Source: a virus. From it: a DNA stretch of 64,000 nucleotides. The stretch spans positions 186,001 to 250,000 of the IMG/VR virus record IMGVR_UViG_3300021520_000002; one strand, 5' to 3'. Below are positions 3,587 to 64,000 of this stretch, piece after piece. The first letter of the stretch is position 1. Each line of letters begins with the position of its first letter. The translations under genes and the position numbers were made by a program. The notes beneath the pieces are model-generated. The model ran no database searches and was not told the DNA's origin. It worked only from the letters and a program-made list of their open reading frames with translations.

Positions 3587-3621
3587 AAAAAAGTCTTGAG
3601 ACCCCTTTTCGGGATCTCAAT
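3587..3621 (-). terminator. Intrinsic terminator of structured RNA 1
   Basis: The hairpin TTGAGATCCC-GAAA-AGGGGTCTCAA is followed on the minus strand by ACTTTTTTATTTATTTT. It has a strong stem and a U-tract. Confidence 0.75.
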
Positions 3622-3833
3622 ATCACGGTCTTTCGACCGGTAGTAAAAGGTGACTAGTTCTTTTACCATCTCTTGAACCCATACATCTGGGTTAGACCGA
3701 TTCTGGAAAGGTTAGTTAAAAGATTAGTCAAATCTTTTTACACCTTTTCTCGTCCAGCAAGAGAGCTAGTTTCGAGACTATGATACAAAGTAATATATCA
3801 CTTAGGATATATTACCTTTCATAGACCTGTCTA
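3588..3833 (-). ncRNA. Structured RNA 1 (about 245 nt), unknown family
   Basis: No ORF with a ribosome binding site. On the minus strand, between a box A/box B promoter and a terminator, there are successive hairpins: GTAATATAT...ATATATTAC, AAAAGATT-tgact-AATCTTTT, AACCCA-gatgta-TGGGTT, GGTAAAAG...CTTTTACTACC, and CGGTC-GAAA-GACCG with a GNRA loop. The many perfect stems suggest selection on RNA structure. It is not a tRNA, tmRNA or riboswitch that I can recognise. It could instead be a long leader for the 96 aa gene. Confidence 0.6.
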
Positions 3834-3866
3834 TTATATTAATTTCTATATGAAAAAGAAGAAAAT
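3832..3866 (-). promoter_or_regulatory. Phage promoter for structured RNA 1
   Basis: The minus strand reads TTTTTCATATAGAAATTAATATA. Box B is perfect; box A is a weak TTCTTC. The upstream T-rich part is also the T-tract of the terminator of structured RNA 2. Confidence 0.75.
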
Positions 3867-3894
3867 AAAATAATGTTACTTTCGTAACATTATT
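3855..3894 (-). terminator. Intrinsic terminator of structured RNA 2
   Basis: Perfect hairpin AATAATGTTAC-GAAA-GTAACATTATT (minus strand), followed by TTATTTTCTTCTTTTT. The tail runs into the next promoter. Confidence 0.8.
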
Positions 3895-4011
3895 CTTCCT
3901 GTTGGTGGGTTATGACCCCACCGGGTGCGCGATATCACACCTTACTAGTAGTGAGAATGACTCACTACAGATCAAATTTCATAGGCTTATATCGAGCCTC
4001 AAAATGATCAT
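3869..4011 (-). ncRNA. Structured RNA 2 (about 140 nt), unknown family
   Basis: A self-contained promoter-RNA-terminator cassette without an ORF. Minus-strand helices: GATCA...TGATC enclosing AGGCT-cgatata-AGCCT; TAGTGAG-tcatt-CTCACTA; GGTGGG-gtcataa-CCCACC; and the terminator hairpin, whose 3' arm contains AGTAACATT, a word also found in two other RNAs of this array. No known RNA family recognised. Confidence 0.65.
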
Positions 4012-4046
4012 ACTATATTAATTTCTATATCAAATCTTTGAATAAC
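4012..4046 (-). promoter_or_regulatory. Phage promoter for structured RNA 2
   Basis: ATTCAA, 8 bases, TATAGAAATTAATATA on the minus strand: both boxes match. Box A directly abuts the T-tract of the terminator of the 235 aa gene. Confidence 0.85.
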
Positions 4047-4066
4047 AAAAAGGCGGAGTTATCCGC
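4045..4066 (-). terminator. Terminator overlapping the end of the 235 aa gene
   Basis: AGGCGGA-TAACT-CCGCCT followed by TTTTTGTT on the minus strand. The stop codon TAA of the gene (4059-4061) lies at the edge of the loop, so translation termination and the transcription terminator are superimposed. Confidence 0.8.
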
Positions 4067-4766
4067 CTGTTAATTGATTTATGATAAGCTGGATTTTCTC
4101 AGGGATAGGAGCATTGAGATCAGGTTCATTAGTTGATCTGTAAATATGTCTTAACTCAATAATTTCGTTAAGGCATATTCCACAACTATGAACATGTTTT
4201 TCAATAACTGTCCTTTCCTCAAGATCAGAGTCGAAGAAGGCATATTTAGCCAACAATTCTGGTTCAATATGTTTCTGATGTTTTTCTTTCATTAACCTAT
4301 TAAACCCAAGTTGGATAAGATGTGGTAACATTTTATCGTTTGGTCCTGCATCCGGAGGAATTTCAGTAAACATCCAATGTTTAGTTGTGATTAAGTCTTT
4401 TTTCCACCATTTCAATTTGTTCTTGTCATATTCATATTTGAATAGATAGAACTTAATTTTGAAAAGATGGTCTAAATCATCAATCTTTTTTACAACATCT
4501 TCCCGATATCCAGTCTGTTTAAAAGCCGCTTTAAGGTTCCATAGGAATGTAAAATTCCATAAGAACGAGAATATTAAATCAGGAACTTCATTGTAATCGT
4601 CTTTATCTATACCATAAATAATTTGATAGTTAACTGTCGATTCAAGATCGGAAAGAGTTTTTTTACACTGGATTATCATATCAATAGCGCGTGAGACCAA
4701 ATGTCTCATATCCACAAATACATATCCACGTTTTTCTAAATCTTTTATTACCAGATTTATTATCAT
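4059..4766 (-). CDS. Protein with zf-HC2-like zinc finger, 235 aa
   Basis: The C-terminal part reads FFDSDLEERTVIEKHVHSC then GIC; the HxxxCxxC arrangement (H191, C195, C198) in a short helical context is the pattern of the anti-sigma-factor-like zinc finger (zf-HC2). Residues 1-170 are mostly helical with W-rich stretches and are not recognised. Start supported by GGAGGAG before the ATG and its own promoter at about 4822-4850. Possible role: binding a polymerase or sigma-like factor, inferred only from the finger type. Codon use is slightly less AT-biased than neighbours. Confidence 0.7.
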   Translation of the reverse strand: MIINLVIKDLEKRGYVFVDMRHLVSRAIDMIIQCKKTLSDLESTVNYQIIYGIDKDDYNEVPDLIFSFLWNFTFLWNLKAAFKQTGYREDVVKKIDDLDHLFKIKFYLFKYEYDKNKLKWWKKDLITTKHWMFTEIPPDAGPNDKMLPHLIQLGFNRLMKEKHQKHIEPELLAKYAFFDSDLEERTVIEKHVHSCGICLNEIIELRHIYRSTNEPDLNAPIPEKIQLIINQLTGG

Positions 4767-4821
4767 ATCTCCTCCTTTAATTTTTAAAATAATATATTAG
4801 AAACTTTATTGTTCCTAATTA

Positions 4822-4852
4822 TACTATATCATTTCTATATGAAAAAGGAGAA
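4822..4852 (-). promoter_or_regulatory. Phage promoter for the 235 aa gene
   Basis: CATATAGAAATGATATAGT on the minus strand (box B with G at one position), preceded by the T-rich tail of the terminator of structured RNA 3. Confidence 0.7.
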
Positions 4853-4881
4853 AACAAAAAGAGAATTTTTTACGTGTCTCT
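4851..4881 (-). terminator. Probable terminator of structured RNA 3
   Basis: GAGA...TCTC stem (minus strand) followed by TTTTTGTTTTCTCCTTTTTC. The stem is short, so this is a moderate call. Confidence 0.5.
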
Positions 4882-5078
4882 ATTCACGGGTTAGAACCAT
4901 TTTTCAGATTTTTATTATCTTAGGTTCACCAAACCTAGGGATTTTTCTCGATTCCCAATCGGACCAATTTGAAGGGTGGTCGTAGACGCTTTATTAAGCA
5001 TCTGGGGCACATAATGTTACTCCCCGTTCCCGTCAGCACTATTTGCGGTTCATATGCTGATCTTTATTAGTCCCTTGT
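4856..5078 (-). ncRNA. Structured RNA 3 (about 220 nt), unknown family
   Basis: Minus-strand helices in order: CAGCA...TGCTG; GGGG-agtaacattatgtg-CCCC; AGATGCTT-aata-AAGCGTCT; GACCA...TGGTC; CGATT-ggg-AATCG; TAGGTT-tggtg-AACCTA; CCGTGA-atagaga-CACG. At least seven hairpins in 220 bases and no supported ORF. The loop of the second helix carries AGTAACATT, shared with structured RNA 2 and the leader at 6182-6408. Confidence 0.65.
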
Positions 5079-5113
5079 ATTATATTAATTTCTATATGAA
5101 AAACTTGAAAATA
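5079..5113 (-). promoter_or_regulatory. Phage promoter for structured RNA 3
   Basis: TTTCAA, 8 bases, TATAGAAATTAATATA on the minus strand: full two-box match. Confidence 0.85.
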
Positions 5114-5145
5114 AAAACCTTTTTAAGGCTGGTTAGGCCTGTTGA
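5114..5145 (-). repeat. Copy 1 of a repeated terminal hairpin element
   Basis: The 26-base word AAACCTTTTTAAGGC plus TGGTTAGGCCT occurs here and again at about 5364-5390, each at a gene end. The minus strand can fold AGGC-ctaacca-GCCT followed by AAAAAGGTTTTTATTTT. Probably a terminator in this copy because a T-tract follows. Confidence 0.55.
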
Positions 5146-6181: not shown

Positions 6182-6408
6182 GTTCTTCTCCTTTATTTTT
6201 ATTTACAGAATAAGAGATATCGATATATAATCGACACCTTATTCCCATGCTTTAACGCGAAAGGTTTTATCGCAACTCAGCTCCGCACGTTTACATGTAC
6301 GCTGAGATTCTAACGGACTACAGTACGGAATGTTACTTCCGTGCTGCAGGACATGTTCCAGCATTGCCACAGGCTCCGCATGGAATTCTACACTTGGTAG
6401 TCATGTAC
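6182..6408 (-). ncRNA. Structured leader or RNA 4 (about 225 nt)
   Basis: Between promoter 6409-6443 and the 57 aa gene. Minus-strand helices: ACGGAA-gtaaca-TTCCGT, CAGCGTACATG...GAGCTG, and a long arm GAATAAG-gtg-TCGAT...ATCGA...CTTATTC at 6208-6244. There is no U-tract after the last arm, so it may be a long structured 5' leader rather than a free RNA. It contains AGTAACATT as in structured RNAs 2 and 3. Confidence 0.5.
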
Positions 6409-7086: not shown

Positions 7087-8994
7087 TTATCCTATTAATG
7101 AATTTACAATGTATCTAATTTTTCCCATTGTAGATTTTGCAGCATCAACATCATCAAAATCAGTAGATGATGCATTTAAAGCATCCATTACATCATCAAC
7201 AAATACTGATGGAGTAAAAATTGTACAATTTAAATTTGGTATTCTTCCAACTCTATTTAAAAGTTGTGATAAATTTCCAATAGGTATTTTTTCATTACCT
7301 GCTTTTTCTACAGATGGAATATACATTTCTTTTATATTAATATTTAAACCTTCGCCGATATAATCTGTAGTTAATACTATGTCAATTTTACCTTTACTAA
7401 ATAAATCTTGAATTATAACATTATCTTGACTGTCTGAAGGATTAACTATTTGACCACCTTTTCTTTCTGGACCATACATAATTCCAAGTCTAGATCCAGC
7501 AGCATTACGAATCATTGGATTTGTAATATCGGCAATTCTTGATTCTCCAACAACAATATCAACATCTTTTTGACTATAAAATGGTTTTTTATATCCAATT
7601 CCAGTTTTAGGTTGAGGACCAACTTCATGACCAAATGATCCACCAAAACAATATTTAGCTATTTCATTTATTTTATATTTACTAAAGAAAACGAAACATA
7701 TTTGACGTTCCCCAGCGGCCAAAAACTTCTTTACAAGGTTTTTGGTATAATTAAAATCAGCAAGTTGATCATAACTTCTAATTTTTATTCTAGCTGTATT
7801 ACGTGCTTCAGATACAAAAGGAACTGTAAAATGTCTTCCATATGCTACATTATAAAATTTAATAAGTCTTGCTGCTGTTTTTTCATTTTGTGTACCAGTT
7901 AAACAAACCATTTTTGCAGATTTTGCCGCTCTACTTGATAATGTATAATCTATTGCAGATGATATTTGTTTAGCTCTTTTATCTACATTTTCTATACCAT
8001 CTGCTGTTAATTCTGCTTTTTGAATTTCATCAAAGACCATCAATTTTAAATTTTTCATTCTATCAATAAATCCTGGTGATGATTCATAAACAGTTATAAT
8101 AACTGGTTTTATTGTCCCACCTTTTTGATGATTTTCTATTGTATCTCCATCAGCATATTTAATTCCAACAAGTTGAGTAGTAACAAATTCTTTAACAGCT
8201 TTTGTAACATTTTCAAAATATTCAGTACTTAAATTTGAAATATTTTCTTCAATTTGTGTAATTTGTTCTGCCGGTAAATTTTGATATAATAATGTATTAC
8301 TAAGATTTGTTAAATTATTATATATATAATTTAATCTTTCTTTCAACGATTGTTGTGTTGCCATATTCATAACAGTTTGATTAAGATTATTATTAACCAA
8401 TCTGTACATATTTTGATTTTGTTGATTTGGTAAAAATAGATTTCGATTTTGATATTGAAAATAATTTATATATTGTAATATAAAAGAAACAAAATTTGTA
8501 ATAAATTCATCTTTAACAGTTTGATCAGTTAAAGCTCTAATTGGACTAAACCACATTATTTGTGGTAAATTTTCTGGATGCTCAATAATTTTTTTAAGAT
8601 TATCTAAAGTTACTTGAGCACGATGTATATCACCTGGATCATTAGGATTTGGTGGATCTAAAGTTACATTAATTCCTAATAATTTTTCAGCCCAATAAAC
8701 TATAACAGGAAGAGTTTTTCCTCCTCCAGGTGATTCAGTCATAATAAAAACATCATGATTTGGTTGACTAAGTTCATCAACTATTTGTCTTTGCCAACCA
8801 TGTAGTTGTGAAGAATTTTTAAGTTGAACTCCAACAGTTGCAGAACTAGGTTCCCACATAGTTTGACTTTGTGGTTGTGGAATTGGTGTAGCCTGTTGTA
8901 ATGGAGCTGGTTGTTGAGCTATATTTTGAAAATATGTATTTATATTTGCTCCTGAACCTAAAGAGCCTAAACTTTCAAGTAAACTTTTCTTCAT
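7087..8994 (-). CDS. SF2-type helicase, 635 aa
   Basis: Helicase motifs in order: LHGWQRQIVDEL (Q-like, about 64-75), TESPGGGKT Walker A at 86-94, MVFDEIQKAE (motif II, DEIQ, near 320), CLTGTQ (motif III, SAT-like), TTDYIGEGLNI (motif V) and LLNRVGRIPN (motif VI). Residues 1-60 are Gln/Pro-rich and probably disordered. A 150-residue insertion rich in Asn/Gln separates motifs I and II. Likely unwinds DNA or RNA during replication or transcription. Start supported by GGAGTTAATT-ATG. Confidence 0.85.
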   Translation of the reverse strand: MKKSLLESLGSLGSGANINTYFQNIAQQPAPLQQATPIPQPQSQTMWEPSSATVGVQLKNSSQLHGWQRQIVDELSQPNHDVFIMTESPGGGKTLPVIVYWAEKLLGINVTLDPPNPNDPGDIHRAQVTLDNLKKIIEHPENLPQIMWFSPIRALTDQTVKDEFITNFVSFILQYINYFQYQNRNLFLPNQQNQNMYRLVNNNLNQTVMNMATQQSLKERLNYIYNNLTNLSNTLLYQNLPAEQITQIEENISNLSTEYFENVTKAVKEFVTTQLVGIKYADGDTIENHQKGGTIKPVIITVYESSPGFIDRMKNLKLMVFDEIQKAELTADGIENVDKRAKQISSAIDYTLSSRAAKSAKMVCLTGTQNEKTAARLIKFYNVAYGRHFTVPFVSEARNTARIKIRSYDQLADFNYTKNLVKKFLAAGERQICFVFFSKYKINEIAKYCFGGSFGHEVGPQPKTGIGYKKPFYSQKDVDIVVGESRIADITNPMIRNAAGSRLGIMYGPERKGGQIVNPSDSQDNVIIQDLFSKGKIDIVLTTDYIGEGLNINIKEMYIPSVEKAGNEKIPIGNLSQLLNRVGRIPNLNCTIFTPSVFVDDVMDALNASSTDFDDVDAAKSTMGKIRYIVNSLIG

Positions 8995-9598: not shown

Positions 9599-10378
9599 TT
9601 ATTTTCCTAAAAATTGTTCAAATAATTTAATATTATTCCATTTTTCATTTATTTCATCATTTTTTGATTCATTTTCAGTTTTTGATAATGGTCTAAGATT
9701 TTTTAATGACCAACATTTTTCAAAATTTGAATCTTCAAACGATTTGATATTAAAAGCTATTATTGGAACAATATGATCAATAACCCAATAATTACCATAA
9801 TTATTCCAATTCATTTTATCATCAAACTGTTTTTCAAGATGTTTCATAAGATCAGTAAGATTATATCCAACAAATTTTAACCAACTTTTTCCTTCTTTTT
9901 TACCTTTTAATATTCCCCAAATAGCTCTACTTACAAGTTTTCTTAATCTAAAAGAAGGATCTGTTTTGTATTTATTTTTGATGTATTCTTTTTTCTTTTC
10001 CATTATTTTATCTTTATTATTTTCAAAATATTTTCTATCTTGTTCTCTTTTTTTCTCTGGATGTTCTTTATAATAAGTTTTTTGTTTAGCTAAAAGTTCG
10101 TTTTTATTTTCTTCCCAATGAGCTTTTCGTTCATCCTGATGTTCTAAACAGTAATTTTTATGATATTCAACTCTTTCATCTTTGTGTTTTTCATAATATC
10201 GGTCAGTTTGAGCTTTATGTTTATCAGGATGATTTTTTCGATATTCTTTTACATTCAGATAATCACAAGGTTTACAATAATATTTATATTTTATTGTACC
10301 GTTTTTTGTTTTATATGCTGGAAATTCAATAATATCTTTTTCTTGTCCACATTTACCTCTACAAATTCTTGTTTTCAT
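9599..10378 (-). CDS. HNH homing endonuclease, 259 aa
   Basis: The catalytic region reads WVIDHIVPI...SLKNLRPLSKTENESK, the standard DH..N/H beta-beta-alpha metal fold near residues 198-243. The N-terminus has Cys pairs (CRGKCG, YYCKPC) forming a probable zinc knuckle, followed by a long Lys/Glu/Tyr-rich repeat of short helical units (for example YYKEHPEKKREQDRKYFENN), probably a DNA-contacting helical array. It lies wholly inside the group I intron and should act in intron homing. It has its own promoter and AGGAGGAATAAT binding site. Confidence 0.9.
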   Translation of the reverse strand: MKTRICRGKCGQEKDIIEFPAYKTKNGTIKYKYYCKPCDYLNVKEYRKNHPDKHKAQTDRYYEKHKDERVEYHKNYCLEHQDERKAHWEENKNELLAKQKTYYKEHPEKKREQDRKYFENNKDKIMEKKKEYIKNKYKTDPSFRLRKLVSRAIWGILKGKKEGKSWLKFVGYNLTDLMKHLEKQFDDKMNWNNYGNYWVIDHIVPIIAFNIKSFEDSNFEKCWSLKNLRPLSKTENESKNDEINEKWNNIKLFEQFLGK

Positions 10379-10424
10379 AATTTTATTATTCCTCCTAGAA
10401 ATTATTAAATGATGATATAGTCTA

Positions 10425-10450
10425 ATTTAATAATTTCTATATAAGAATCT
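10425..10450 (-). promoter_or_regulatory. Phage promoter inside the intron, upstream of the HNH gene
   Basis: TTATATAGAAATTATTAAATT on the minus strand: box B matches but box A is weak. It would allow transcription of the endonuclease independent of the host gene. Confidence 0.6.
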
Positions 10451-10648
10451 TAATTACTAAATAATAGGATGCCTCGCGCTTCCGTCCGCTTGGACGTACT
10501 CCCTTTCGGGATAGTCGTTACACCTTCAGTTAATATAGTTCGCAGCTATATTAAAAGCTTGGCTCGGTATTGTCCTATTTCTAGGAGTTTCACCGAATTC
10601 ACGAGGTTATTCGAATATCATTACTGATATAAGCCGCTTAATAGATTA

Positions 10649-11664
10649 ACGGGATCACGTTTATAGATCACAACTTTTCCATCAACAATTTCTTCTGCTA
10701 CATGAATGAAATATTGTTTAAGTTGTTCTGATACTATATTTGGTTTACTTATTAAACTTGCAAATAATCTCTTAAGATCATTTACATCTGGTGGAACTTC
10801 TGATTTCAGAAATTGTTGGATTATTCCAAGAGCACTACTATCTTTTTTTAAGATATAATTAATTGCAAATGGTTCATATAATTTTAAAACTACTTGCCAA
10901 GGCAATCCAACTGTTCCAAGTTTAAGAGTGTGATCTGTTGTAATAACTAATCTTGCCGAATAATCAGTAGTTTTTCTTAATAATCCACCTCTGATTAATC
11001 CAGATTTTCCTTTCATTCTACTTTTAATCCAGTTATTTGTATCTAATAAAGTATGTTGAATTTGTTCCATAATTGGGACTTTAATATCATCTGGTAATTC
11101 TGGAGCGAAATACTTAATATTTCTTATTAGAGAGCCATAAAATTCTGACAAATCTGAAAAGTTAACAATAGTTTGTCCAGATGTTTTACTAACGGCAAGA
11201 TCTCTAATTCCAGCTGGTAAAAGTATAAATTTATCAATAAAGATTTTATTTTTATTTTCTTTAATAAACTTCACATTTTCTGGTTTATTCTTTTTATATT
11301 TATCTAAATTAATTTTATCAAAAATTGATACTAAATAACCTATACCTGAATTTCCACTTGCATCTTCAATAACTTCTCCTGTTGCTGATAAACTATATTT
11401 CCCTTTATTCTGTAAAAGTTTAGATATGTTTGTATCTAATCCAGATACAATTGAATAAGCTTCAGGATGTATTAATTTTGTTTTCAAATTAACATATGCA
11501 AAAGTTTTTCTACGTTCTGCACTTCCGAATCTTCCAAAAATCTCTTCTGAAAATAATCCATTAGGATCAGTTTTTCCAACTTTTTCATAAAGACGAACAG
11601 TTGTTACTTCTTTTAGTTTGTTTTTTGTTATGAATTCATCAATATCTAATAATTTAAGTTTCAT
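10649..11664 (-). CDS. RNA polymerase beta' N-terminal part (set 1), exon 1
   Basis: Beta' landmarks: NGLFSEEIFGRFG at about 35-47 (start of the clamp), SGLIRGGLLRKTTDYSARLV at about 224-243 (the conserved GKRVDYSARSVI region) and YKRDPV at 334-339 (the RxP motif next to the active site). I end the exon at V339; without splicing, translation would stop eight codons later (NLLSGLYQ). The intron falls between the RxP motif and the DxDGD loop. It represents a polymerase different from the one encoded at 34-38 and 51-55 kb. Confidence 0.8.
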
Positions 11665-11685: not shown

Positions 11686-12330
11686 TTAATTACTAATTTG
11701 ACCTATATAATATTCTTCTAATTTTTTATAAAGTTCAGTATCGATATCATCAACATTCATATCTTTTAAAAGTAACATCATATAATCATTATCTTCTTCA
11801 CCATTCCAATTTTTGATATATGTTCCTTTTTTATATCCATGATTTTGCCGAAATCCATTAAGAATATTTTTGCCGATATACAATTTATACAATTGTTCTA
11901 AAGAGAATATTTCAACTTTATAACACAACATCATGAAATATCTAAGCATAGAAGATTGTTTTAGAGCGGCAAAAGCTAAACTTTCAATACATTCCTGAAC
12001 TGATTGTTTATTATCTTCTTGATCATTTAATACTCTAAAACTATTAATTACAAAATCAAAAACTTGTTTAAGATCTTTATTTTCTTTTAACAAATCACTC
12101 ATTATAAAATGCCAAATATCAACAAGTTCCAGTTGAAGTTGTTCTAAATTAACTTCTCCTTTTTTCCACCATTTCCAATCGGTGTGTTCAATCATTTCAG
12201 CACATTCTGTCCACACAGCACGATACCAAGGAATATCTCTTTCCTTCCAATTTTCACCATTAGTGTGAACACTAAGTTCTTCCTGCTTATCAAACATCTT
12301 TTGTAACATTTCGATTTGTGTCATTATCAT
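11686..12330 (-). CDS. dut: Dimeric (all-alpha) dUTPase/MazG-like NTP pyrophosphatase, 214 aa
   Basis: WTECAEMIEHTDWKWWKK followed by LQLELVDIWHFIMSDL gives the E..E and E..D metal-binding helices of the dUTPase_2 family (ExxE...ExxD arrangement at about 35-75). Such enzymes hydrolyse dUTP (some dCTP) to the monophosphate, keeping uracil out of DNA and feeding thymidylate synthase. Length is in the family range. The start is MIMTQ or the ATG two codons later; GGAGATAA precedes. Confidence 0.75.
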   Translation of the reverse strand: MIMTQIEMLQKMFDKQEELSVHTNGENWKERDIPWYRAVWTECAEMIEHTDWKWWKKGEVNLEQLQLELVDIWHFIMSDLLKENKDLKQVFDFVINSFRVLNDQEDNKQSVQECIESLAFAALKQSSMLRYFMMLCYKVEIFSLEQLYKLYIGKNILNGFRQNHGYKKGTYIKNWNGEEDNDYMMLLLKDMNVDDIDTELYKKLEEYYIGQISN

Positions 12331-12485: not shown

Positions 12486-12523
12486 AACAAAAAGTTGGGA
12501 CAGAGATCCGGTTTCTCTGTCCC
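12486..12523 (-). terminator. Strong intrinsic terminator of structured RNA 5
   Basis: GGGACAGAGA-aaccgga-TCTCTGTCCC, a perfect 10 bp stem, followed by AACTTTTTG on the minus strand. Confidence 0.85.
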
Positions 12524-12688
12524 TTTTACTACTATCGTGCTCCTATTTCTATAGGAGCTTTCATTATTTACTGGTAGAGGCGCGCCCACTATCTTTCGCC
12601 AAGTCGACGCGTTGTTTTTGCGTATCTACCAGTATTAGGCGCTCGTGGCTAGCCAGTCCGTTTAACGGGGGCTGCCGATGGCGCGGAC
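12486..12688 (-). ncRNA. Structured RNA 5 (about 200 nt), unknown family
   Basis: Independent promoter and terminator, no ORF. Minus-strand helices: CTGGTAGA...TCTACCAG (8 bp closing a GC-rich domain with GCGCGCC), GCTCCTAT-agaa-ATAGGAGC (8 bp), and GGCTAGCC. The first helix may hold a multi-branch junction. It is noticeably richer in G+C than the neighbouring genes, as expected of a folded RNA in an AT-rich genome. Family not recognised. Confidence 0.65.
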
Positions 12689-12689
12689 A

Positions 12690-12724
12690 TTATATTAATT
12701 TCTATATGAAAAACTTAAAAATAA
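12690..12724 (-). promoter_or_regulatory. Phage promoter for structured RNA 5
   Basis: TTTTAA, 8 bases, TATAGAAATTAATATA on the minus strand. Box A is continuous with the T-tract of the terminator of structured RNA 6. Confidence 0.85.
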
Positions 12725-12742
12725 AAAACCCCCGTAAGGGGG
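12721..12742 (-). terminator. Intrinsic terminator of structured RNA 6
   Basis: CCCCC-TTAC-GGGGG followed by TTTTTTATTTTTAAG on the minus strand. Confidence 0.85.
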
Positions 12743-13057
12743 AAGGTCTTTACGACATTAACTGTCGCTCTTATTAGAGTTCCTCAGTCTCCAATAGTTC
12801 CCATAGAGCCCTCTCATCCTATTGCTAGGACTTCTTTCTAATTTTACGAACTTGTCCCTATGGCGATAGTTCAACCAAGTATTTTTCAGACTTCAGAGAT
12901 TTCTCTCAACCCTTCCGGTCGTCTGAATTTCCTTGGAAATTTAAATCGGAGAAAACCGGAGTCGCTAGTCGTTTGACCTCGTCCGATTTTTCTCCTGTAA
13001 TATGAAATATCGACTGAAATCTCCACCGAGGAGATTTCTAACTTCATCTTACTAAAA
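12723..13057 (-). ncRNA. Structured RNA 6 (about 330 nt), unknown family
   Basis: The longest of the structured RNAs. Minus-strand helices include GAAATCTCC-tcggt-GGAGATTTC near the 5' end, ATCGGA...TCCGAT enclosing GACTAGCGACTC, AATTTCC-aa-GGAAATT, AGAG-aaat-CTCT, TCCTA-gcaa-TAGGA and the terminator. No ribosome-binding-site-preceded ORF. Two-thirds of the length is in plausible stems. Family not recognised. Confidence 0.6.
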
Positions 13058-13090
13058 ATATTATTTCTATATATAAATAGAGATTATCAA
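13058..13090 (-). promoter_or_regulatory. Phage promoter for structured RNA 6
   Basis: TATATATAGAAATAATATTT on the minus strand; box A is less clear. Confidence 0.7.
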
Positions 13091-13113
13091 ATTAATGTAT
13101 TTTATAATTTAAT

Positions 13114-63750: not shown

Positions 63751-63796
63751 TAAAAACAAACAAAATTTTCATATGATACGAATATCACATGAAAAT
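63750..63796 (-). terminator. Intrinsic terminator of structured RNA 7
   Basis: ATTTTCATGTGATATTCG pairs with the following ATCATATGAAAAT (one mismatch), then TTTGTTTGTTTTTATTTTT on the minus strand. Confidence 0.75.
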
Positions 63797-63900
63797 CTTG
63801 CCGGTAGAACAATTTCTTAAACCAGCAAGTGGTTCAGAACAGGAACATCTACAGCCTACTGTAGCGTCCTTCAACTAAAGGTTACCCTTTAATCTATACT
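63765..63900 (-). ncRNA. Structured RNA 7 (about 135 nt), unknown family
   Basis: Own promoter and terminator; no ORF. Minus-strand helices: CCTTTAG-ttg-AAGG, CTACAG-tagg-CTGTAG, AACCA-cttgc-TGGTT, then the terminator. Same cassette plan as structured RNAs 1-3, 5 and 6. Confidence 0.6.
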
Positions 63901-63935
63901 TATTAATTTCTATATGAAAAGCTTGAATATCAAAA
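63901..63935 (-). promoter_or_regulatory. Phage promoter for structured RNA 7
   Basis: ATTCAA, 8 bases, TATAGAAATTAATAAG on the minus strand: full two-box match. Confidence 0.85.
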
Positions 63936-63939
63936 AAAG

Positions 63940-64000
63940 AAAATAAACAAAGAACTTATGTGATATAAATATCACATAAATCCTTCGCCAGTCGGAGCAA
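63940..64000 (-). ncRNA. 3' end of a further structured RNA, running off the window
   Basis: Hairpin TTATGTGATA-ttta-TATCACATAA with a T-rich tail (minus strand), preceded by TTGCTCCGACTGGCGAAGGA at the window edge. It is the terminator of an upstream unit like structured RNA 7; its terminator stem resembles that of RNA 7. Confidence 0.5.

Follow-up and report, generated by a model that had tools for sequence, protein, structure and literature searches.

Promoter-led structured RNA units in a jumbo phage genome as candidate noncoding RNA genes

A jumbo phage genome carries a series of units, named here RNA1 to RNA8, that are very probably real noncoding RNA genes. They are bounded by a phage promoter and an intrinsic terminator in the manner of a promoter-led phage sRNA gene, the terminator of RNA3 being weak. 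RNA3 and RNA4 are uncertain as genes.

Of a virus record 285.6 kb long, bases 186001-250000 contain RNA1 to RNA7 and part of RNA8. This stretch of 64,000 nucleotides is referred to as the window, and its coordinates are prefixed w. It encodes a split multisubunit RNA polymerase (RNAP), an NAD-dependent DNA ligase and a dUTPase. The RNAP beta' fragment gives 25-35% matches to Bacillus phage BpSp, AR9, PBS1, phiR1-37 and staphylococcal jumbo phages; judged by these matches and by its gene content, the source is a divergent AR9/phiKZ-type jumbo phage with multisubunit RNA polymerase genes. We note that RNAP beta' is interrupted by an intron-like insert (w9438-10620) immediately ahead of its ADHDGDQ metal-site motif. 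Its ORF (w9599-10378) resembles a homing endonuclease by eye and has no Pfam match, and Rfam reported no group I intron at this insert.

Scans of IMG/VR with the helicase or RNAP beta' as single proteins found no close relative. The alignment scan of IMG/VR gave 45 loci, all at most 34% identical to the query, and neighbour proteins used in the same way added no relative. Comparison of the DNA with phage records gave nothing, or short chance matches. Scans with the promoter led to one 87.8-kb IMG/VR contig of a closer relative (3300009502_001749), mostly 60-90% identical at the amino acid level, and to a relative in a metagenome bin, i.e. a bacterial MAG. The 87.8-kb contig covers the structural half only and has no RNA cassettes; the RNA loci fall outside that half.

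Promoters, terminators and the extent of the units

The promoter element is ~40 bases long and consists of TTTTTATWTTCAA followed, a few bases further on, by TTTCATATAGAAATWATATA, as given by a weight matrix made from the sites. There are 35 copies of TATAGAAAT in the window, compared with 4.1 expected from shuffles. The matrix scores above 14 at 57 sites in 218 kb of genome, while the reversed-sequence control contains a single site above 12; an earlier note on this DNA had proposed that the units have their own phage promoter, and this is borne out. Most sites are 16-80 nt 5' of an ORF with a Shine-Dalgarno sequence (SD-ORF), a spacing from which the RNA units deviate, and a minority of copies lead into ORF-poor, GC-rich units closed by intrinsic terminators. 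The class, which also drives many protein genes, is probably the early, virion-RNAP class by analogy with AR9, where the early consensus is AAATATATATTAT-6N-G (PMC5312081). The virion-RNAP early promoters of this phage group have a similar extended AT-rich form and lie a short distance before genes, but their consensus differs from that of this lineage. Promoter style and gene content suggest early timing of the units.

RNA1-8 are all on the minus strand. Promoter position denotes the first T of TATAGAAAT, and the 5' ends of the units are approximate, being set at 20 bases past the start of TATAGAAAT.

3588-3830, minus: RNA1, ~243 nt, terminator TTGAGATCCCGAAAAGGGGTCTCAAGACTTTTT; then an SD-ORF (w3269-3559) without its own promoter
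3835-3875, minus: RNA1 promoter (w3850), score 33; overlaps the U-tract of the RNA2 terminator
3868-4009, minus: RNA2, ~142 nt, a row of stem-loops, terminator AATAATGTTACGAAAGTAACATTATTTTATTTT; the RNA1 promoter comes next
4014-4053, minus: RNA2 promoter (w4029), score 30.5
4059-4766, minus: gene for a 235-aa protein between RNA3 and RNA2, own promoter at w4839; no Pfam or PADLOC match
4856-5076, minus: RNA3, ~221 nt, the weakest unit; weak terminator TAGAGACACGTAAAAAATTCTCTTTTTG, also present in the relative
5081-5120, minus: RNA3 promoter (w5096), score 35.7
6197-6404, minus: RNA4, ~208 nt, promoter at w6424; runs into an SD-ORF (w6008-6181), so sRNA or leader
12489-12686, minus: RNA5, ~198 nt, GC 0.51, terminator GGGACAGAGAAACCGGATCTCTGTCCC; then an SD-ORF (w12290-12472) without its own promoter
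12691-12730, minus: RNA5 promoter (w12706), score 34; fused to the U-tract of the RNA6 terminator, with the hairpin directly 5'
12723-13051, minus: RNA6, ~329 nt, terminator CCCCCTTACGGGGGTTTTTT; the RNA5 promoter comes next
13056-13095, minus: RNA6 promoter (w13071), score 29.5
63757-63894, minus: RNA7, ~138 nt, paralog of RNA8
63899-63938, minus: RNA7 promoter (w63914), score 38
63943-64000, minus: 3' part of RNA8, paralog of RNA7; the whole unit is genome 249945-250082
Genome 250102, minus: RNA8 promoter, 102 bases beyond the window end, from the motif scan

All the units listed in the earlier note were found, and its size range of 135-330 nt fits RNA1-8; its list lacked RNA4 (w6197-6404). 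Further units lie outside the window, three of ~60 nt that are almost only terminator, at 263637 (U263.64), 256012 (U256.0) and 153035 (U153.0), and three of 98-117 nt, at 263540, 177893 and 152941. Intrinsic terminators had been ascribed to the units throughout; a hairpin with a U-tract is clear in RNA1, 2, 5, 6, 7 and 8 and weak in RNA3.

A hairpin ends just 5' of 20 of 54 promoters, compared with 6 of 60 random places, and terminators and promoters are therefore often fused. Palindromic copies of a ATCGGCAAGATC-type motif form terminators ahead of promoters. In w1-58200 the CGGCAA of this motif has 26 copies on one strand and 20 on the other, where 2-3 are expected; both relatives also contain it often, and the stretch of AR9 that was checked almost lacks it. 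RNA units account for 11 of the 15 sites with T directly after TATAGAAAT and for 3 of the 31 others (P 2.6e-5), but this T-versus-A pattern was chosen post hoc and is a lead only, and the rule fails for the L124 and L146 units of the relative described below.

The main alternative to separate genes is that at least RNA1, RNA4 and RNA5 are attenuated 5' leaders, controlling read-through into the next gene by riboswitch-like or premature termination. In all three cases an SD-ORF lacking its own promoter lies within tens of bases 3' of the unit, and there is a precedent in phiKZ, where p40 has a 180-nt 5'-UTR RNA that apparently ends before the start codon (PMC8545117). However, RNA2, 3, 6, 7 and 8 cannot be leaders of a downstream gene because each ends directly at a fresh promoter. 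Moreover, the 200-nt bodies contain several independent hairpins in which an alternative terminator/antiterminator pairing is not obvious, and searches matched them to no riboswitch family. Taking this together with the leader-like arrangements in the relative (below), we consider attenuation rather unlikely.

Two further features of these neighbourhoods are recorded here. The adjacent proteins encoded at w2565-3251 (HD-domain) and w3269-3559 have a common N-terminus, MI[NS]I[GS]YLFE[FV]E, and differ in the remainder. A direct repeat, AAAACCTTTTTAAGGCTGGTTAGGCC, at w5115-5140 and w5365-5391 flanks a 75-aa gene (w5123-5350).

Folding, coding content and family membership

With terminators removed, the bodies have folding z-scores of -5.6 (RNA1), -5.3 (RNA2), -1.9 (RNA3), -2.4 (RNA4), -3.8 (RNA5), -4.6 (RNA6), -2.2 (RNA7) and -4.3 (RNA8); including the terminator, the whole units of RNA1 and RNA5 reach -7.5 and -7.0. 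In the control, 60 random 150-nt segments gave a mean z of -0.34 (sd 1.32), with 12% below -2. The folding of RNA1, 2, 5, 6 and 8 is thus convincingly beyond chance. That of RNA3, RNA4 and RNA7 is unconvincing by itself, because 12% of random segments reach z < -2. The stem-loop-rich bodies described in the earlier note therefore hold for RNA1, 2, 5, 6 and 8 (z -3.8 to -5.6) and are modest in RNA3 and RNA7. The GC content of the units is 0.37-0.52 (RNA2 0.46, RNA4 0.48), set against 0.287 for the 218 kb of genome.

The strength of this folding bears on whether the units are simply promoter-terminator spacers or insulators, in which the RNA cargo is irrelevant. The ~60-nt near-terminator-only units U263.64, U256.0 and U153.0 would suit such a role, as would a short unit of the relative that is almost only terminator (L130 5140-5205). 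By contrast, the bodies of RNA1, 2, 5, 6 and 8 fold far beyond chance, and the helices of RNA7 and RNA8 are kept by compensatory change (see below), which a spacer would not need. We regard this explanation as improbable.

No ORF with a ribosome binding site (RBS) is present in RNA1, 2, 5, 6 or 8. RNA7 offers one candidate alone, a TTG frame of 29 codons whose GG-rich match is weak, so that the earlier statement that the units lack such an ORF stands in substance there too; it gives way at RNA3, with a possible 25-codon ORF behind GGGGAG. RNA4 has a 43-codon GTG ORF with a weak SD match, and RNA6 a 53-codon ATG ORF without an SD. The candidate small ORFs of RNA3, RNA4 and RNA6, and a 37-codon SD-ORF that adjoins the array of the relative, are what might be expected if the units were protein genes, either decayed or very short, and noncoding in appearance only. 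Against this, the units have high GC and strong folding, most have no SD, the longest stop-free runs in RNA1-8 are merely 22-54 codons (at most 54 with TAG or TGA read as sense, or 68 in RNA6), and the differences between RNA7 and RNA8 track helices. It is very unlikely that they are protein genes.

The search of Rfam gave no match for any unit, in keeping with the earlier view that they belong to no known family, and the tRNA model found nothing in the RNA units. Direct repeats, which in type III toxin-antitoxin RNA are tandem and adjoin a ToxN-type gene, occur only at promoters and terminators, and neither PADLOC nor Pfam pointed to a toxin among the neighbours scanned. As to group I introns, the units sit between genes and interrupt no coding gene. 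BLAST and covariance-model comparison revealed no relatedness among the units except between RNA7 and RNA8, so the plan repeats while the sequences differ, as the earlier note had put it. A 9-mer, AGTAACATT, common to RNA2, 3 and 4 (3 of its 11 genome copies) was chosen post hoc and is a lead on which no claim is made.

As a further possibility, the units could be sRNAs that act on phage or host mRNAs by base pairing. In size, and in having a promoter of their own and an intrinsic terminator, they resemble classical bacterial sRNAs, but they are strongly folded and leave few long stretches unpaired, and complementarity to 230 phage translation-start regions is not beyond chance for most units. 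For most units, antisense action at phage start codons was rejected on this basis. For RNA7 and the unit at 177893 (U177.9), complementarity reached P 0.01 at one start region each, out of 11 tests. Overall, regulation by base pairing seems doubtful, although less so than a spacer role.

RNA7 and RNA8 are diverged paralogs, alignable over 142 columns, and adopt the same plan when folded separately. In RNA7 this is a hairpin with a GUAA loop, a bulged second hairpin, a third hairpin and a 20-bp terminator. Of the 40 base pairs that are shared, 11 differ on both sides, and 100% of the cells pair; when the partner is slid by 1-3 columns as a control, pairing falls to 36-50%. The first hairpin is the most striking, with double changes at five of its nine pairs. 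Only two sequences enter this comparison, and their own folds supplied the structure. The covariation is nonetheless good evidence of selection on structure. A covariance model built from the pair found no third member. Comparative folding had been suggested as a check; covariation of this kind is seen in the RNA7/8 pair alone, the other units having no detectable homologs.

The corresponding loci in a relative

Searching for exact copies of the gene-type promoter led to the relative, as a contig of the bacterial MAG JAGVVH01 (WAS_Bin_9). Its phage-like contigs, among L119-L134 together with L146, encode homologs at ~30-80% amino acid identity (66% for RNAP beta'), and the promoter is common to the relative and the window phage. 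Note that the comparison of locations involves this one relative, in fragmented contigs of a MAG.

Both phages have a thioredoxin homolog (L124 2355-2696 in the relative, w62584-62928 in the window phage). Beside it in the relative are two promoter-led RNAs, A (L124 1338-1503) and B (1588-1740), placed like RNA7 and RNA8. RNA B has a whole-unit z of -8.5 and a plan like that of RNA7/8, with a GCAA-loop first hairpin, a bulged second, a third and a 21-bp terminator, while the z of RNA A is only -2.0 to -2.3. No sequence similarity between RNA B and RNA7/8 could be detected. Near this locus the relative also encodes an IscB-like protein (L105 4116-5495; RRXRR 89 bits and HNH).

The second locus lies between a kinase homolog and ribonucleotide reductase (RNR). 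In the window phage this interval is occupied by RNA1-4 together with several small genes, in the relative by an 853-nt RNA (L146 8703-9555; z -5.3) with no long gene and a terminator at its end. Its promoter, at 8682, is weak (19.8). The RNA includes a tRNA-like element with a 94-nt insert (31.5 bits, E 2e-4) that ARAGORN does not call. RNR follows directly 3' of it and no second promoter could be detected, and elsewhere in the relative a ~90-nt structured leader (L122) precedes a downstream ORF; both are arrangements that attenuated leaders would have. In the same contig as the 853-nt RNA, an insert similar to that of the window phage occupies the same site of RNAP beta' (L146 5690-5960), another is found in RNR (L146 ~11930-12230), and the RNR gene (L146 ~10170-11500) has a large in-frame insert that is intein-like by eye.

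The sole convincing sequence match between the relative and the units is the 28-nt terminator of RNA3 (26 of 28 at L122:6023-6050). Apart from this, neither BLAST nor covariance models detected homology of the window RNAs to those of the relative, and the case for persistence by location consequently consists of two syntenic loci in this single relative. The earlier note had envisaged a family of separately acquired or fast-evolving RNAs. Unrelated RNAs at the two loci accord with separate acquisition or fast evolution; a single family does not emerge, since only RNA7 and RNA8 are related.

Known systems and possible function

Few phage noncoding RNAs are known, 21 by the count cited in PMC8545117. 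In phiKZ two were identified by Grad-seq, from the 3'-UTR of PHIKZ298 and the 5'-UTR of p40 (PMC8545117). Like the present units these are structured, of ~100-180 nt, and come from a jumbo phage with multisubunit RNAPs, and one is seemingly prematurely terminated. Unlike them, they are only two in number, are processed or attenuated from mRNA UTRs, and form no array with its own promoters; their sequences were compared with the units only via BLAST of phage records.

AR9 was scanned with its own early consensus, giving 38 sites at a median of 40 nt from an SD-ORF. The long-distance sites belong to short or weak-SD ORFs, chance sites in genes, or the g057 promoter, which is reported to be inactive (PMC5312081), and have a GC content of 0.20-0.32. 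AR9 thus shows no promoter-led ncRNA cassettes; its early promoters lead to ORFs, and such cassettes are therefore not general in the group.

GOLLD and ROOL are large structured phage RNAs without assigned function, and some GOLLD RNAs have a tRNA in the linker (PMC12286853). At the gathering threshold their Rfam models have no match in the window. The units, of 138-329 nt, are too short, as the earlier note had remarked, GOLLD and ROOL being ~600-800 nt or more. Nor is there a tRNA island, the window containing only two tRNAs (w21988 and w46054). The second of these (w46054-46128, minus strand) has a CUA anticodon and an encoded CCA; it is named tRNA-Pyl by ARAGORN and is possibly an amber suppressor. 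Among 50 long open runs, just 3 end in TAG. The ~850-nt RNA of the relative resembles GOLLD/ROOL in size and in its tRNA-like element, but fails the Rfam model, with neither family among all Rfam matches to E 5. It may work like GOLLD/ROOL while not being one.

Bacterial sRNA genes have in common with the units their own promoter, folded body and intrinsic terminator. The units differ in the phage-specific promoter, the tandem cassettes, the fusion of terminator to promoter, and the lack of a known family.

We propose that each unit would begin at a phage promoter, run through 135-330 nt of structured body and end at an intrinsic terminator whose U-tract would often merge into the next promoter, so that promoter and terminator would constitute a cassette. 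The RNA cargo of the cassette would be duplicated, as for RNA7/8, or replaced, while genome positions persist between related phages. The RNAs would be made at the start of infection as separate stable transcripts with an effect on the host, acting by folding and by binding host proteins or RNPs and not by pairing with phage mRNAs. Without insisting on a protein partner, we consider this account as a whole to be on balance probable.

RNAs that are kept at two places with exchanged sequence suggest a diversifying pressure on the cargo, as for factors that meet the host. Protein- or RNP-binding RNAs are therefore favoured by the exchanged cargo together with the lack of excess pairing to phage translation starts. 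The likeliest role, which we put forward tentatively, would be binding to host proteins or RNPs in takeover or counter-defence. The other roles suggested in the earlier note, as defence decoys, RNA of an early-infection compartment or packaged RNA, are speculative. It is similarly conceivable that fixed positions in this lineage hold swapped or fast-diverging RNA cassettes as changing early RNA effectors, an RNA counterpart of accessory protein islands.

This one genome has at least eight promoter-led structured RNA units, compared with the two ncRNAs reported for the model jumbo phage phiKZ (PMC8545117). Together with a relative that keeps RNAs of new sequence at two of these places, such a set would, if the proposal is correct, make RNA effectors an ordinary component of infection in the lineage and offer defined candidates for tests against host machinery and defence.
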